From contig JAJRWM010000211.1 in NCBI GenBank assembly GCA_024276815.1, forward strand, positions 1 to 9,026: DNA of 9,026 bases, read 5' to 3'. A model generated the notes under the pieces. It worked only from the letters and a program-made list of their open reading frames with translations, made no database searches and had not been told where the DNA came from. This document shows positions 1,672 through 8,591 of this stretch, in pieces (position 1 is the first letter of the stretch; each line of letters starts with the position of its first letter). Source of the stretch: a bacterium (GTDB lineage Bacteria; JACRDZ01; JAJRWM01). Made by a program: the position numbers and the translations under genes.

Positions 1672-1723
1672 AAAAAAATACCCGCGATTTTGTCTTGACA
1701 GGAGTCATCAGCCTTTGGCGGGC
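1672..1723 (-). terminator. Riboswitch expression platform: intrinsic terminator
   Basis: On the minus strand GCCCGC (1723-1718) can pair with GCGGGT (1685-1680, one G:U). One base later comes a run of seven T (1678-1672), the layout of a Rho-independent terminator with a long loop. The 5' arm contains the GCC (1723-1721) that the aptamer uses for its short internal stem with GGC (1713-1711), so the two structures exclude each other. Fluoride binding should keep the GCC in the aptamer and prevent termination. The stem is short, so strength is uncertain. Confidence 0.6.
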
Positions 1724-1750
1724 GGTTTACGGAGGAACTCCATCTCCGTG
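1697..1750 (-). promoter_or_regulatory. Fluoride riboswitch (crcB motif) aptamer
   Basis: On the minus strand the segment contains, in order, the conserved blocks GGAGATGGAGTTCCTCC (1747-1731), TAAACCGCC (1729-1721) and GGCTGATGACTCCTG (1713-1699), which match the known fluoride aptamer. Pairings visible are GGAGT (1741-1737) with ACTCC (1705-1701), the pseudoknot ACGGAG (1749-1744) with CTCCGT (1734-1729), and the short stem GCC (1723-1721) with GGC (1713-1711). This aptamer family binds fluoride through Mg2+ ions and usually turns on fluoride exporters. It lies about 22 nt after the predicted transcription start and is followed by a terminator that competes with one aptamer strand. Orientation and position fit control of the antiporter 247-1497. 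Confidence 0.92.
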
Positions 1751-2047: not shown

Positions 2048-5000
2048 ATGTCTTTAAAGAAAAACGAGTTAATATCAGCCGCCAACACGTTTTTTCAGCA
2101 GGGACGTTGGGATAAAGCTATCGAAAAATATAACTTGGTCCTGGAAATTGAGCCTAAGAATTTTAATGTTTTCAATATGTTGGGGGATTGTTACCTGGGG
2201 CGCGGAGATAACGCGAACGCCTTCGAAGTTTACCTGAAAGCGGCGGATATTTTAATCGAACAGGGCTTGATAAATAAAGCCATCGCTATTTATAAAAAGG
2301 TGCTGAGGATTTATCCCGATAATTTTGATATCTACGGGAAACTCGCCAATTGTTATGTCCAAAATGGTTTAATCGGCGAAGCGAACGCTCTGTATCTGAA
2401 ACTTGGTGAAATGTATACCAAGGAGAAGATGCCTCAGGAAGCGATGGTGGCTTATAGAAAAATAGCGGAACTCAATCCCAACAATGTATTGATACGCATC
2501 AAGCTGGCTGAAATGTTCGCCAAGCAGGGGATTATCAACGAGGCCGTCTCGGAATTCCTGCAAATAGCTGAAAAATACCAGAATGAGAACCAGGTCGAAA
2601 AACAGGTTCAGTTATTAATGCGCGGCAAGAAAATTTTCCCGCAAAACGCTGAGTTTTTTATTAAGTTAGGCGAAATTTACTTTGAGCGGGGAGACTACCA
2701 GGGAGCCGTTGTCGAATTAAAAGAGGCTTGCAATCTGCTCGAAAGCGCGGAAGTCTTGCAAAAGCTGGCCTTATGCGCTGTAAGAATTGATGATCGCGAT
2801 CTGTTTGAGAACAACCTGGAAAAACTGGTCAGCCTTGATCCTGATAATCCTGGGATCAAGCTCCTGCAGGGATTCAAAGCTGCCTATGCCGGCGACGCGG
2901 AGTCCGCTTACAATACCGTAAGTGAAATTAACGAGAGCTTGCTTGAGGAAGGCAAAATAAAAGAGGCCGGGGAAAACGCTCGGGATATGGAGACGATATT
3001 GGGCGACACCCTGGAAGTCCAGAAGCTGTATTTTCAGTTTTATGACGCTCAGGACGAAAAAGAGGATGAGTTGGTCTCAACCGGACAAAAGCTGGCCTTT
3101 CATCATCACAATTTGGGTCAGGTTGAGGACGCGGAGAAAGTCTATAAACATGTTTTAGAAAAATATTCCTATCGAAAAGATGTGCGGGAAGGCGCGCCGG
3201 TTCCCGTTGCCGAGAAAAAAGATGAGGCTCCCAAACAGGTTGAGGAAGTTGAAGCTAAATCGGTTGAGCTACTGCTTGAAGAAGCCAACGAATTAGCTCA
3301 GCAGGGTATTTTTGAAGAAGCGATAGATATTTACCAGGATGTGATATCTGAGGAGCCCTCTAACAGGGAAGCGTGTTACCAACTAGGATTGGTGCATAAG
3401 CGGCTGGGGAATTACGAAGAAGCTGTGAAAAGTTTCAGTAAATACCTGGAAAACGATAATCAGAATGTTCGCGTCTGGGCCAGCTTGGGTGAGGTTTATC
3501 AGGAGCTTGGGCAGACAGAGGAAGCTATTGTTGCTTTTGAACGAGCCGTTGAACTTGATGACTCCCTGATTTCTGTTTTGAATCAACTGGAAAAGATTTA
3601 TATAGAAACAGGCAATGATGAAAAGTTAAATTGGTGTCGGAGAAAACAGGGACAGTTGAGTTCGTTCGACGCTACGCCGACGGGACTGGAAGAAGTTTCT
3701 GAAGAGGAAGTGGCGTCTTCGGAGTATGTGGCGAGCGCTGCGGAAGAGTATATGCCTGAGGAGTATGACGAGCAGGTCAGCGCTGATTCAGGGGAAGCCG
3801 AAAGCGTATCTGAAGAAGAACTCCTGGAAATTGAACAAGTTTCAGAAGTAATTGAAGAAGTTGAGAAACCGGAATCTTTAGCCGCGGAACCGGTTGCCGA
3901 TGTCAAAACTGAGGAGATCAAACCTCTCGAAGTAGAACGGACTTCAGATATTGTGGAGGAAACGACAGAGCCGGAGACTGTTTCCGCTGATTCGGACGAA
4001 GTTGAGCCGCAAGCCGTGGCCGCTACAACTGAAGAGCCTGCGGGAATTGAACAGTTGGAGCCGGTAACCGCTGATTTCGAACCTTATGAAGATTCGGTCA
4101 CTTCGGAAATTGAGCCTATTGTAGTGGAGCAAAGCCCGCAATCCGAAGAAGACGCGGAGTTGCGGCCGGCTGTCGGGAAAGATGGTTCCCTGGTCGTCGA
4201 AGATGTCTTCACCCCGCCTCAGTCAGAAACCGATATCTCGGGAATTGATCTGGCCGCCTCTGAAGCCGAAGTTGCCGAAGTAAAGGTCGAGCCTACCGGC
4301 GAGATTGAGTTGGATCAACCTGAGAAAGAGATCGCCGTTGAGGAAAAACCATCCGCGGAAGAAGTTGCCGCCTCAAAGGAAGTTACTGAGGATCTGGAAT
4401 ATCTGGAAGAAGTTGAGGAATATGGCGAAGATACAGAGAAAATACAGCAAGCATTGGAACAAGCCAAGATTTTCCTTAATCATCATATTAACGATAAAGC
4501 CGCAGCCGAATGTAAAAAGGTTCTTGATCTGGATCCTGATAACGTTGAAGCGCAGCAGATATTGCTACAGCTTAAAGAGAAGATGTCGGCCAGGGATAAA
4601 ATCAAAGATCAAGACTTGGAACCGCCTGAAAAATCCGCCCAGGCCCTGGAGGGGGGGACCCGTTCCATCTCTGTTCAGGAGGAAAACATTCTGGATCAAT
4701 TGATGGATGAGGAGGTTGTTACCCCTGTGTTCCATGAAAGCGAACTGGACAGCAAATCTCTCGATGATATCATCGCCGATTTTAAAACAGGGGTCATTGA
4801 AGAGGGTGAAGACGAGGACTACGATAATCATTTTAAGCTGGGGCTGGCCTTCAAGGATATGGGACTCTACGATGAAGCTATCGGCGAGTTTCAGATTGCC
4901 GCCAAGGATGAGGAGCATTATTCGAGTTGCTGTGAAATGCTCGGTGATTGCTATCTGGAGAAAGGTATTTACAGTCTGGCGGTCGAAGAGTTGTCTAACG

Positions 5001-5182
5001 GGTTAGAGCTGGCGACTGGTGTTGAAGATAAAATAAAGTTTAAATACAAACTGGGTATCGCCTACGAAAAAAACGGCCATATAGACCAGGCTATTGAAAT
5101 GTATGAAAGTGTCGCCGCTGAAAACAGCGACTATGAACAGGTTGCCACCAGGTTGGAGTTAGCGAAAAAATCAAAAAATTAA
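2048..5182 (+). CDS. Large cytoplasmic TPR scaffold protein with acidic linker
   Basis: The protein has 1044 residues, no signal peptide and no membrane segment. Tetratricopeptide repeats fill residues 5-300 (for example GRWDKAIEKYNLVLEIEPKN), recur near 345-375 and again at 404-535 (GIFEEAIDIYQDVISEEPSN, GNYEEAVKSF, GQTEEAIVAF). Residues 545-795 are a Glu/Val/Pro/Ala-rich, strongly acidic and probably disordered linker. A single TPR-like unit (796-845) and a second acidic stretch follow. A C-terminal block of repeats (926-1035) is preceded by LDDIIADFKTGV (904-915). GAGAGGG (2036-2042) lies 5 nt before the ATG. TPR superhelices bind partner proteins, so a scaffold or adaptor role is likely, but the partner and pathway are unknown. 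No catalytic domain is seen. The same-strand tRNA follows after 57 nt. Confidence 0.92.
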   Translation: MSLKKNELISAANTFFQQGRWDKAIEKYNLVLEIEPKNFNVFNMLGDCYLGRGDNANAFEVYLKAADILIEQGLINKAIAIYKKVLRIYPDNFDIYGKLANCYVQNGLIGEANALYLKLGEMYTKEKMPQEAMVAYRKIAELNPNNVLIRIKLAEMFAKQGIINEAVSEFLQIAEKYQNENQVEKQVQLLMRGKKIFPQNAEFFIKLGEIYFERGDYQGAVVELKEACNLLESAEVLQKLALCAVRIDDRDLFENNLEKLVSLDPDNPGIKLLQGFKAAYAGDAESAYNTVSEINESLLEEGKIKEAGENARDMETILGDTLEVQKLYFQFYDAQDEKEDELVSTGQKLAFHHHNLGQVEDAEKVYKHVLEKYSYRKDVREGAPVPVAEKKDEAPKQVEEVEAKSVELLLEEANELAQQGIFEEAIDIYQDVISEEPSNREACYQLGLVHKRLGNYEEAVKSFSKYLENDNQNVRVWASLGEVYQELGQTEEAIVAFERAVELDDSLISVLNQLEKIYIETGNDEKLNWCRRKQGQLSSFDATPTGLEEVSEEEVASSEYVASAAEEYMPEEYDEQVSADSGEAESVSEEELLEIEQVSEVIEEVEKPESLAAEPVADVKTEEIKPLEVERTSDIVEETTEPETVSADSDEVEPQAVAATTEEPAGIEQLEPVTADFEPYEDSVTSEIEPIVVEQSPQSEEDAELRPAVGKDGSLVVEDVFTPPQSETDISGIDLAASEAEVAEVKVEPTGEIELDQPEKEIAVEEKPSAEEVAASKEVTEDLEYLEEVEEYGEDTEKIQQALEQAKIFLNHHINDKAAAECKKVLDLDPDNVEAQQILLQLKEKMSARDKIKDQDLEPPEKSAQALEGGTRSISVQEENILDQLMDEEVVTPVFHESELDSKSLDDIIADFKTGVIEEGEDEDYDNHFKLGLAFKDMGLYDEAIGEFQIAAKDEEHYSSCCEMLGDCYLEKGIYSLAVEELSNGLELATGVEDKIKFKYKLGIAYEKNGHIDQAIEMYESVAAENSDYEQVATRLELAKKSKN

Positions 5183-5239: not shown

Positions 5240-5314
5240 GCGGGTGTAGTTCAGTGGTAGAACGCAAGCTTCCCAAGCTTGATGCCGAGGGTTCGATCCC
5301 CTTCACCCGCTCCA
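5240..5314 (+). tRNA. tRNA-Gly (anticodon CCC)
   Basis: A complete cloverleaf is seen. Acceptor GCGGGTG (5240-5246) pairs with CACCCGC (5304-5310). The D arm is GTTC/GAAC. The anticodon stem CAAGC/GCTTG closes the loop TTCCCAA, giving anticodon CCC, which reads GGG. The T arm is GAGGG-TTCGATC-CCCTT with one G:U. A discriminator T and an encoded CCA (5312-5314) end it. It sits between two same-strand protein genes with no obvious promoter or terminator of its own, so it is probably cut from a longer transcript. Confidence 0.97.
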
Positions 5315-6013: not shown

Positions 6014-7360
6014 ATGCGTAAAGTCCTGACAATCGCCGGTTCAGATTCCTCCGGCGGCGCTGGCATCCAGGCCGATATCAAAACGTTTGAAGCCTTGAAG
6101 ACATATGGACTAAGCGTTCTTACCGCGTTAACGGCCCAGAATACCCGCCGGGTTGACAGCATTCTCAATCTTCCGCCGGAATTTATCGAAGCGCAGTTTA
6201 ATTCCGTATTATCCGACATAAAAATAAACGCCGCCAAAACCGGTATGCTGGCTAACCACGATACGATTAAGGCTGTTGTCAAAGCGTTGCTGAAATACCA
6301 GGTGACCAACCTCGTTATCGATCCGGTGATGGTTTCCAAAAGCGGGCATTTGTTACTGGAGACCAAAGCGGTTGAGACAATGGTTGATGAATTGTTCCCG
6401 CTGGCTGTAGTGGTGACCCCAAACATTGATGAAGCTCAGGCGCTGGCCGGGATCAAGATTTATGATCAAAGCACCTTGGAACAGGCCGCCTTGCTGATCT
6501 ATCGCCGCTGCGCCAAGAATGTTTTGATAACCGGGACGGAAGTTGACGATGACGACCACATCACCGATTTGTTTTATGACGGCGTCGAATATCGTCAGTA
6601 TCGTTCGGTCAAATTAAAAAAACAGGGTATCCACGGCAGCGGCTGCACCTTTTCCGCCGCCATCGCGGCCTACCTGGCCCTGGACAAAGAGTTGCCCGAA
6701 GCGATTGGCCGGGCCAAGAAATACATCACCCAGGTTATTAATTACAGCTTCGCCGTTGGTAATGGTTATCCGGTTGGCAATCATTTCTTCCAGTTGTTTC
6801 GCGATGAGGAACTCAGACAAACCATCAAAGAGGTCAGCGATGGCGTTTACCGTTTGAAACAAGCCCGGATGGGGCGGCTGATTCCTGAAGTCCAGTCAAA
6901 CCTGGTGATGGCGTTTCACAGCGCTCAGGGGCTGGAGGAAGTTGTTGGTATACCAGGTAGAATCATCAAGGTTGGGGATGAGATTGAAGTGTTGAGAGCG
7001 CCATGTCTGGGCGGCTCTCAACATATGGGTAAAGTGGTTTTGACCGTGATGCGTAGCTTTCCCCACTGGCGGGCGGCCATGGCGATTAAATATAATGAGA
7101 CCATAATAAAAATAGCCGATAACCTTAATTTTACCATCGCTTCTTTTGACCGAAACAAGGAGCCGCTGGTTATTCAGGACAAGGAAGGTTTTTCCCTGGA
7201 ATGGGGCACCAGGGAAGCGCTGAAAAGCATTGATAGCCCGCCTGATCTGATATATGATACCGGCTCAAACGGCAAGGAACCGGTCTGCCGTATTTTGGGG
7301 GAAAATGTGGCCTCGGTTGTTGATAAAGTTTTAAAAATCTTGGATCTCTACAGTGAGTAA
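6014..7360 (+). CDS. thiDN: Bifunctional HMP-P kinase / thiamine-phosphate synthase, ThiD-ThiN fusion
   Basis: The product has 448 residues in two domains. ThiD (1-262) phosphorylates HMP-P to HMP-PP. It shows [18 protein letters not shown] (8-25), DPVM (103-106), TPN (135-137) and [10 protein letters not shown] (207-216) with the anion-hole region and Cys211. ThiN (about 270-448) joins HMP-PP to thiazole phosphate to give thiamine phosphate, replacing ThiE. It shows [10 protein letters not shown] (288-297), PGRI (314-317), GGSQH (333-337), AMAIKY (355-360), SFDR (377-380) and [10 protein letters not shown] (414-423). Arg316 and His337 are spaced like the Arg/His pair I recall as essential in an archaeal ThiDN. 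No frameshift separates the domains. The ATG is 3 nt after the upstream stop with only a distant weak SD, which suggests coupling. thiC follows with no real gap. Confidence 0.95.
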
Positions 7361-7361
7361 C

Positions 7362-8591
7362 ATGAAGTTTGATCTCAAACAATTAGCGATACGTGAGGGC
7401 GTCGAAGTCGCTTTCCTGGCTGAAAAGTTGAAAGCACGTGAAATTATCATAGTGCAAAACTCGGAACGCGAAATCAGGCCCCTCTTGATTGGGACCGGCC
7501 TTACCGTCAAGGTTAACGCCAATATCGGCACTTCGCAGGCGCATCTCGATGTCGATCTGGAACTGGAGAAGTTAAGGGTCGCTGTTGAAGCCGGGGCGGA
7601 CGCGGTCATGGACCTTTCCACCGGGGGGCCTCTGGATGAAATAAGGGAAAAAATCCTGACCGCTTCTCCGGTAGCTGTCGGTACGGTGCCTCTGTACCAA
7701 GCGTTTTGCGAGGCGGCCGGTCGGGGTAGCCGCAACGATTTAACCGCTGATGATATCTTCGGGGTAATTGAAAAGCAGGCTGAAAGCGGCGTTGATTTCG
7801 TTACCGTTCACTGCGGGGTTACACGTAACGCTCTGGATATTCTCAGGACGGAAGGACGTATCTGCGATATCGTCAGTCGGGGCGGAGCGTTAATCGCTGA
7901 GTGGATGACTGTTAACAATCAGGAAAACCCGCTCTATTCACAATTTGACCGTTTGCTGGAAATTTGCCTGAAGTACCGGGTAACTTTAAGCCTGGGTGAC
8001 GGATTGAGGCCTGGCTGCCTGGCTGACGCCACCGATAAAGCGCAAATCGCGGAACTGATAACGCTGGGTGAATTAACTCAAAGGGCCTGGCAAAAGAATG
8101 TTGATGTCATGGTCGAAGGTCCCGGTCACATGCCTATGGATCAGATTGAGGCCAATATGACGCTCCAGAAAAGGCTTTGTCACAACGCTCCTTTTTATGT
8201 GCTGGGACCGCTGGTTACCGATATCGCTCCCGGTTACGACCACATAACGGCGGCTATCGGAGGCGCTATCGCCGCTCGCTACGGCGCCGATTTCCTGTGT
8301 TATGTTACGCCGGCTGAACACCTGTGTTTACCGGAGGTCGAGGATGTTAAAACCGGGGTAATCGCTTCCCGGATCGCCGCGCACAGCGCTGACATCGTGA
8401 GGAATCCGGGCAGAGCGAGGATTTGGGATGACCGTATGGCTAAATTCCGCAAAGATTTGAATTGGGAGATGCAGAACAAACTGGCGATTGATCCTTGTCG
8501 GTTCAGGGAATTACACCAAAAATTTAAAGGCAGTGAAAAAGACTCCTGCACCATGTGCGGTGATTTGTGTTCGATGAAAGTGAAATTGTAA
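7362..8591 (+). CDS. thiC: Phosphomethylpyrimidine synthase ThiC, short form
   Basis: A radical-SAM enzyme that turns aminoimidazole ribotide into HMP-P, the substrate of the ThiD domain encoded just upstream. From ATG 7362 it has 409 residues, close to the short bacterial/archaeal form. Motifs are VNANIGTS (51-58), SLGDGLRPG (210-218), VEGPGHMP (251-258), GPLVTDIAPGYDHI (282-295) and the C-terminal cluster Cys396-TM-Cys399-GDL-Cys403 that holds the 4Fe-4S. The spacing is CX2CX3C, against the textbook CX2CX4C. The N-terminus lacks about 14 residues that many short ThiC proteins have. GTG 7353, overlapping the thiDN stop, would add three residues; neither start has a strong SD and ATG is chosen on codon preference. 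Confidence 0.96.
   Translation: MKFDLKQLAIREGVEVAFLAEKLKAREIIIVQNSEREIRPLLIGTGLTVKVNANIGTSQAHLDVDLELEKLRVAVEAGADAVMDLSTGGPLDEIREKILTASPVAVGTVPLYQAFCEAAGRGSRNDLTADDIFGVIEKQAESGVDFVTVHCGVTRNALDILRTEGRICDIVSRGGALIAEWMTVNNQENPLYSQFDRLLEICLKYRVTLSLGDGLRPGCLADATDKAQIAELITLGELTQRAWQKNVDVMVEGPGHMPMDQIEANMTLQKRLCHNAPFYVLGPLVTDIAPGYDHITAAIGGAIAARYGADFLCYVTPAEHLCLPEVEDVKTGVIASRIAAHSADIVRNPGRARIWDDRMAKFRKDLNWEMQNKLAIDPCRFRELHQKFKGSEKDSCTMCGDLCSMKVKL

Follow-up and report, generated by a model that had tools for sequence, protein, structure and literature searches.

The role of cation/proton antiporters in fluoride defence has been in question since these transporters were first linked to fluoride riboswitches. 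The typical bacterium has one of two fluoride exporters (PMC11139923), and the same review, citing Baker 2012, names Na+/H+ antiporters as the commonest riboswitch-associated genes after the exporters. The association between this riboswitch class and antiporters is already published (PMC2864571, PMC11139923, PMC11477304): the class was described together with K+ and Cl- transport genes (PMC2864571), and in C. difficile (CD0656-7) one riboswitch operon contains a CLC gene and, after it, an antiporter gene (PMC11477304). Here we ask what a predicted fluoride switch does in front of a stand-alone antiporter gene in a bacterial sequence of 9,026 nt (the window; contig JAJRWM010000211.1).

The original prediction placed a fluoride riboswitch on the minus strand at 1697-1750 and proposed a covariance-model search. 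In a cmscan of the window against Rfam, the fluoride riboswitch aptamer (crcB motif, RF01734) matched at 1756-1692 (-) over its full length (model positions 1-64 of 64) with 53.7 bits and an E value of 6.3e-13, clearing the gathering score of 34 bits by a wide margin. The location was thus right, and the true aptamer is slightly larger than first drawn; it is the only RF01734 match in the 2.39-Mb assembly. The Rfam alignment, with scripted coordinates, gives a P1 hairpin at 1749-1729 (ACGGAG 1749-1744 / CTCCGT 1734-1729) closed around the loop ATGGAGTTC, as well as a P3 stem at 1723-1711 (GCC 1723-1721 / GGC 1713-1711). The pseudoknot spans 1741-1701: its GGAGT half (1741-1737) lies within the P1 loop and matches ACTCC in the 3' strand (1705-1701) at 5/5 pairs. 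The two helices had been exchanged in the original prediction; what was called a 6-bp pseudoknot, ACGGAG/CTCCGT, is the ordinary P1 hairpin, and the supposed 5-bp stem, GGAGT/ACTCC, is the pseudoknot. The conserved blocks GATGG, AACCGCC and GCTGATGACTCCT had been named correctly and are all present. The window aptamer resembles the RF01734 class in P1, P3, the pseudoknot, the conserved blocks and its place in the 5' leader of a transporter gene, but it differs in having no clear terminator over the pseudoknot strand and a long leader, with 194 nt between the aptamer and the GTG start of the antiporter. We conclude that 1756-1692 (-) is a genuine full-length crcB-class aptamer, which, judging from its class, should bind fluoride.

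The promoter, aptamer and antiporter follow one another in the order first described. Directly upstream of the aptamer we find the perfect promoter that had been reported there, a predicted sigma-70-type element at 1805-1778 (-) in which TTGACA (1805-1800) and TATAAT (1783-1778) are separated by a 16-nt spacer and match the consensus at 12/12 bases. The next gene on the same strand encodes a CPA2-type cation/proton antiporter of 416 aa (1497-247, -), preceded by the Shine-Dalgarno sequence GGAGGAG (1511-1505, -); it begins with a GTG at 1497, in line with the start positions of the homologues L033 and L102. The protein matches PF00999 with an E value of 2.7e-40, and its nearest solved structures are those of NHA2/SLC9B2 (E 1e-43), other Na+/H+ antiporters reaching 5e-8 or weaker; with TIGR00932, a narrower CPA2 model, it stays below the cut-off (32 of 238 bits). 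It shares PF00999, the Asp-Asp of TM5 (ASVDDAVAI) and the Lys motif of TM10 (PKATVQAA, KATVQ) with NHA2/SLC9B2 and NapA, both CPA2 proteins, and differs from them in being a bacterial protein of 416 aa that is predicted to be regulated by fluoride. We take the two Asp residues and the TM10 Lys to be the ion-site residues of NapA and NHA2. Some relatives have DN (L004, L006, L007, L009) or SD (L008, L010) in place of DD at the TM5 site, and these may differ from the DD proteins in substrate or coupling. DN variants occur both with and without the switch, so we did not take a missing Asp at the ion site to indicate a changed substrate.

Elsewhere in the window, a gene divergent from the antiporter (2048-5182) encodes a TPR protein of 1044 aa whose middle part is a long acidic stretch, and a tRNA gene identified by Rfam lies at 5240-5311; from its anticodon loop, TTCCCAA, we read by eye a probable CCC (glycine) anticodon. 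At 6014-8591 lie two thiamine biosynthesis genes, a ThiD-ThiN fusion and, after it, thiC, and the Rfam scan at the gathering threshold listed no TPP riboswitch in the window.

To see how the pairing of aptamer and antiporter is distributed, relatives were gathered by protein and profile searches, and aptamers were sought beside them by cmscan. A switch precedes the same antiporter subfamily in 36 of the 77 genomes examined, including that of the closest relative found (L102, 67% identical), with which the window pairs in a FastTree phylogeny at a support of 0.999 and around which the clades are mostly switch-bearing. An aptamer lies directly upstream of the antiporter at L006, L008, L033/L087, L048-L053, L055 and many of L062-L085, with further aptamers at L102 and at L109, where it is 256 nt away, and matches below the curated threshold at L005, L059, L060 and L067. 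Many antiporters on the Kiritimatiellia side (L098-L115; 54-60% identical, L102 excepted) have no switch, so the link is not obligatory; these look like apparent losses. Among weaker PF00999 relatives, cmscan found no aptamer at L011-L016, L019, L020 and ten others. Two of these loci, from two genomes of the same phylum, carry nhaA-I RNAs (RF03057, the lithium riboswitch class) near PF00999 genes (L019:3215-3269 and L020:3186-3239). The protein led us to L006, L008 and the later sets; L033 came to light through its own riboswitch and is therefore not an unbiased sample. A single-protein scan of genome contigs gave no match, and a DNA-pattern scan gave five loci, one with a 56% identical antiporter.

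The pseudoknot is preserved across these aptamers. An initial MAFFT alignment misplaced the variable middle and was set aside, so pairs were counted by script in 33 aptamers, all but the last three; 31 of them keep 5/5 pairs, with two-sided changes between G-C and A-U and between U-A and C-G. The same riboswitch-antiporter pairing occurs in other phyla, which, at the level of sequence, supports the originally proposed tie between the antiporter and fluoride stress.

How the aptamer might control the gene can be read in part from the relatives. Most of them have an intrinsic terminator that starts within the pseudoknot strand (one instance is ACTCCTGC...GCAGGAGT-TTTT); with this arrangement, fluoride should induce expression. 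The same test found no terminator overlapping the pseudoknot strand in the leaders of the window, L087, L102 and L109; L087 and L102 have Shine-Dalgarno sequences (AGGAG, AAGGAG) that complement the pseudoknot region. The window leader contains AGGAG twice, once in the antiporter's Shine-Dalgarno sequence, where it complements CTCCT of the aptamer 3' strand, and once at 1640-1636. The second copy belongs to AGGAGTC (1640-1634, -), whose 7 nt are complementary to GACTCCT (1706-1700), the segment containing the pseudoknot strand; 8% of shuffles do equally well. A weak candidate for an atypical terminator lies at 1723-1672 (-), where GCCCGC (1723-1718) would pair with GCGGGT (1685-1680), followed by an A and seven T (1678-1672). 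With its long loop this hairpin reaches -14.4 kcal/mol (z -1.67; 13/200 shuffles do as well), and the folding energy of the whole leader is no better than that of shuffles. Neither candidate is statistically firm, so we infer the window's platform: for the window and its nearest relatives, translation control or a weak atypical terminator is likeliest. The minimum-energy fold also pairs the 3' strand of P1 with the main Shine-Dalgarno sequence; as P1 is a local hairpin, we gave this pairing little weight.

That the aptamer acts on transcription, with termination at the GCCCGC/GCGGGU hairpin and U7 tract, and not on translation, is the lesser but still substantial possibility. The hairpin lies directly 5' of AUUUUUUU; it is incompatible with the aptamer, since its 5' arm uses P3 and an inner UGAC/GUCA hairpin uses part of the pseudoknot strand, and terminators are what most relatives use. 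The long loop and the shuffles that match its stability speak against it, as do the switch-bearing L102 and L087, which have no terminator but do have a complementary Shine-Dalgarno sequence.

The leader very probably contains a genuine crcB-class riboswitch that would turn on a CPA2/NHA2-like antiporter when fluoride enters the cell. RNA transcribed from the sigma-70-type promoter would fold around Mg-bound fluoride into P1, P3 and the pseudoknot, with fluoride-dependent modulation expected in the P1 loop and in the strand GAUGACUCC. When fluoride is absent, the free pseudoknot strand GACUCCU would block expression, most likely by pairing with the downstream AGGAG ribosome-binding sequence, the GCCCGC/GCGGGU-U7 hairpin being the alternative block; when fluoride is present, the same strand would be held in the pseudoknot and the gene would be expressed.

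HF enters cells as a weak acid, and the trapping of fluoride is proportional to the pH gradient. The antiporter would probably counter this weak-acid stress through transmembrane exchange of protons against Na+ or K+. Running so as to import protons, it would reduce the pH gradient and with it the trapping of fluoride; in a Na+-energised anaerobe, the reverse mode could expel protons and relieve the acid load. pH homeostasis is also the general role favoured in the review, and fluoride-adapted yeast tolerate a lower cytoplasmic pH (PMC11139923).

We looked for CrcB (Fluc) and CLC by family profile and found neither in the window's genome, which is 91% complete and contains six PF00999 genes but a single fluoride aptamer. 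CrcB is likewise found in 0/36 genomes with a switch-controlled antiporter, and CLC is absent from 4 of the 36, the window's genome included. The CLC-F signature is GNNLI/GMGLI (PMC11139923). All of the CLCs that we read in 25 other switch-antiporter genomes (25/25) have GREGP, and most also GSGIP, which are motifs of the chloride type and not of CLC-F; seven CLCs stand outside this reading (G158, G159, G160, G172, G267, G274 and G275). In the phylum of G121, the antiporter is found in 9/39 genomes and CrcB in 16/39 with an overlap of 0 (hypergeometric P 0.004, uncorrected for shared ancestry). The genomes compared are 64-100% complete, and this, together with shared ancestry, weakens the exclusion statistics. 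The window's own phylum is poorly sampled at four genomes: the antiporter occurs without CrcB in G000 and G001, while in G002 and G003 CrcB is accompanied only by distant PF00999 relatives. We did not find this exclusion between antiporter and CrcB in published work within the open-licence literature searched. What is new here is the antiporter subfamily behind the switch in genomes without Fluc, some of them without any CLC. The published antiporters under fluoride riboswitches (PMC11139923; C. difficile CD0656-7, PMC11477304) are alike in that a cation/proton antiporter lies downstream of the aptamer. In C. difficile, however, the antiporter shares one operon with the CLC gene it follows, whereas the NHA2-like gene of the window stands alone, and no Fluc or CLC is recognisable in its genome.

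These absences raise the question of whether the subfamily protein itself exports fluoride, or exchanges it for a cation or proton, as a third solution beside Fluc and CLC-F. We consider this unlikely, even though no other gene in the antiporter's exporter-less genome lies under a fluoride riboswitch and the absence of CrcB, the four genomes without CLC, the chloride-type motifs and the lack of overlap in the phylum of G121 all point in that direction. The window protein keeps the TM5 DD and the KATVQ Lys of cation antiporters and matches NHA2, C. difficile has both an antiporter and a CLC under one riboswitch, and the P value, the completeness of the genomes and the seven CLCs outside the motif reading carry the limits given above.

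Two further readings of the leader fare worse. Translation of a 45-codon leader ORF (1628-1491, -) coupled to the antiporter is improbable: it has an ATG and a good Shine-Dalgarno sequence (AGGAG 1640-1636) inside the 7-nt AGGAGUC complement of the aptamer strand, and its stop overlaps the antiporter start, but its codon usage looks non-coding (-0.14 per codon vs +0.20 to +0.37 in four genes), shuffles reach the complement as often as noted above, and such an ORF would not fit into the short leaders of L087 and L102. We rejected it as a gene, since by codon usage it is probably non-coding. The idea of a decayed relic or a functionless chance match in place of a working aptamer, to which the unremarkable folding of the leader and the lack of a visible canonical expression platform might lend some colour, is very hard to reconcile with the covariance score, the intact conserved positions, the perfect promoter and the sister gene L102, which shows the same arrangement with a covaried pseudoknot.

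An ordinary riboswitch thus flags an antiporter subfamily that would never be connected with fluoride from its sequence alone. We suggest, tentatively, that in lineages without Fluc or CLC-F the NHA2-like subfamily may be the main riboswitch-controlled defence, either moving fluoride or collapsing the pH gradient that traps HF. Whether a cation/proton antiporter suffices for fluoride defence can be tested directly in the Fluc-less and partly CLC-less lineages.
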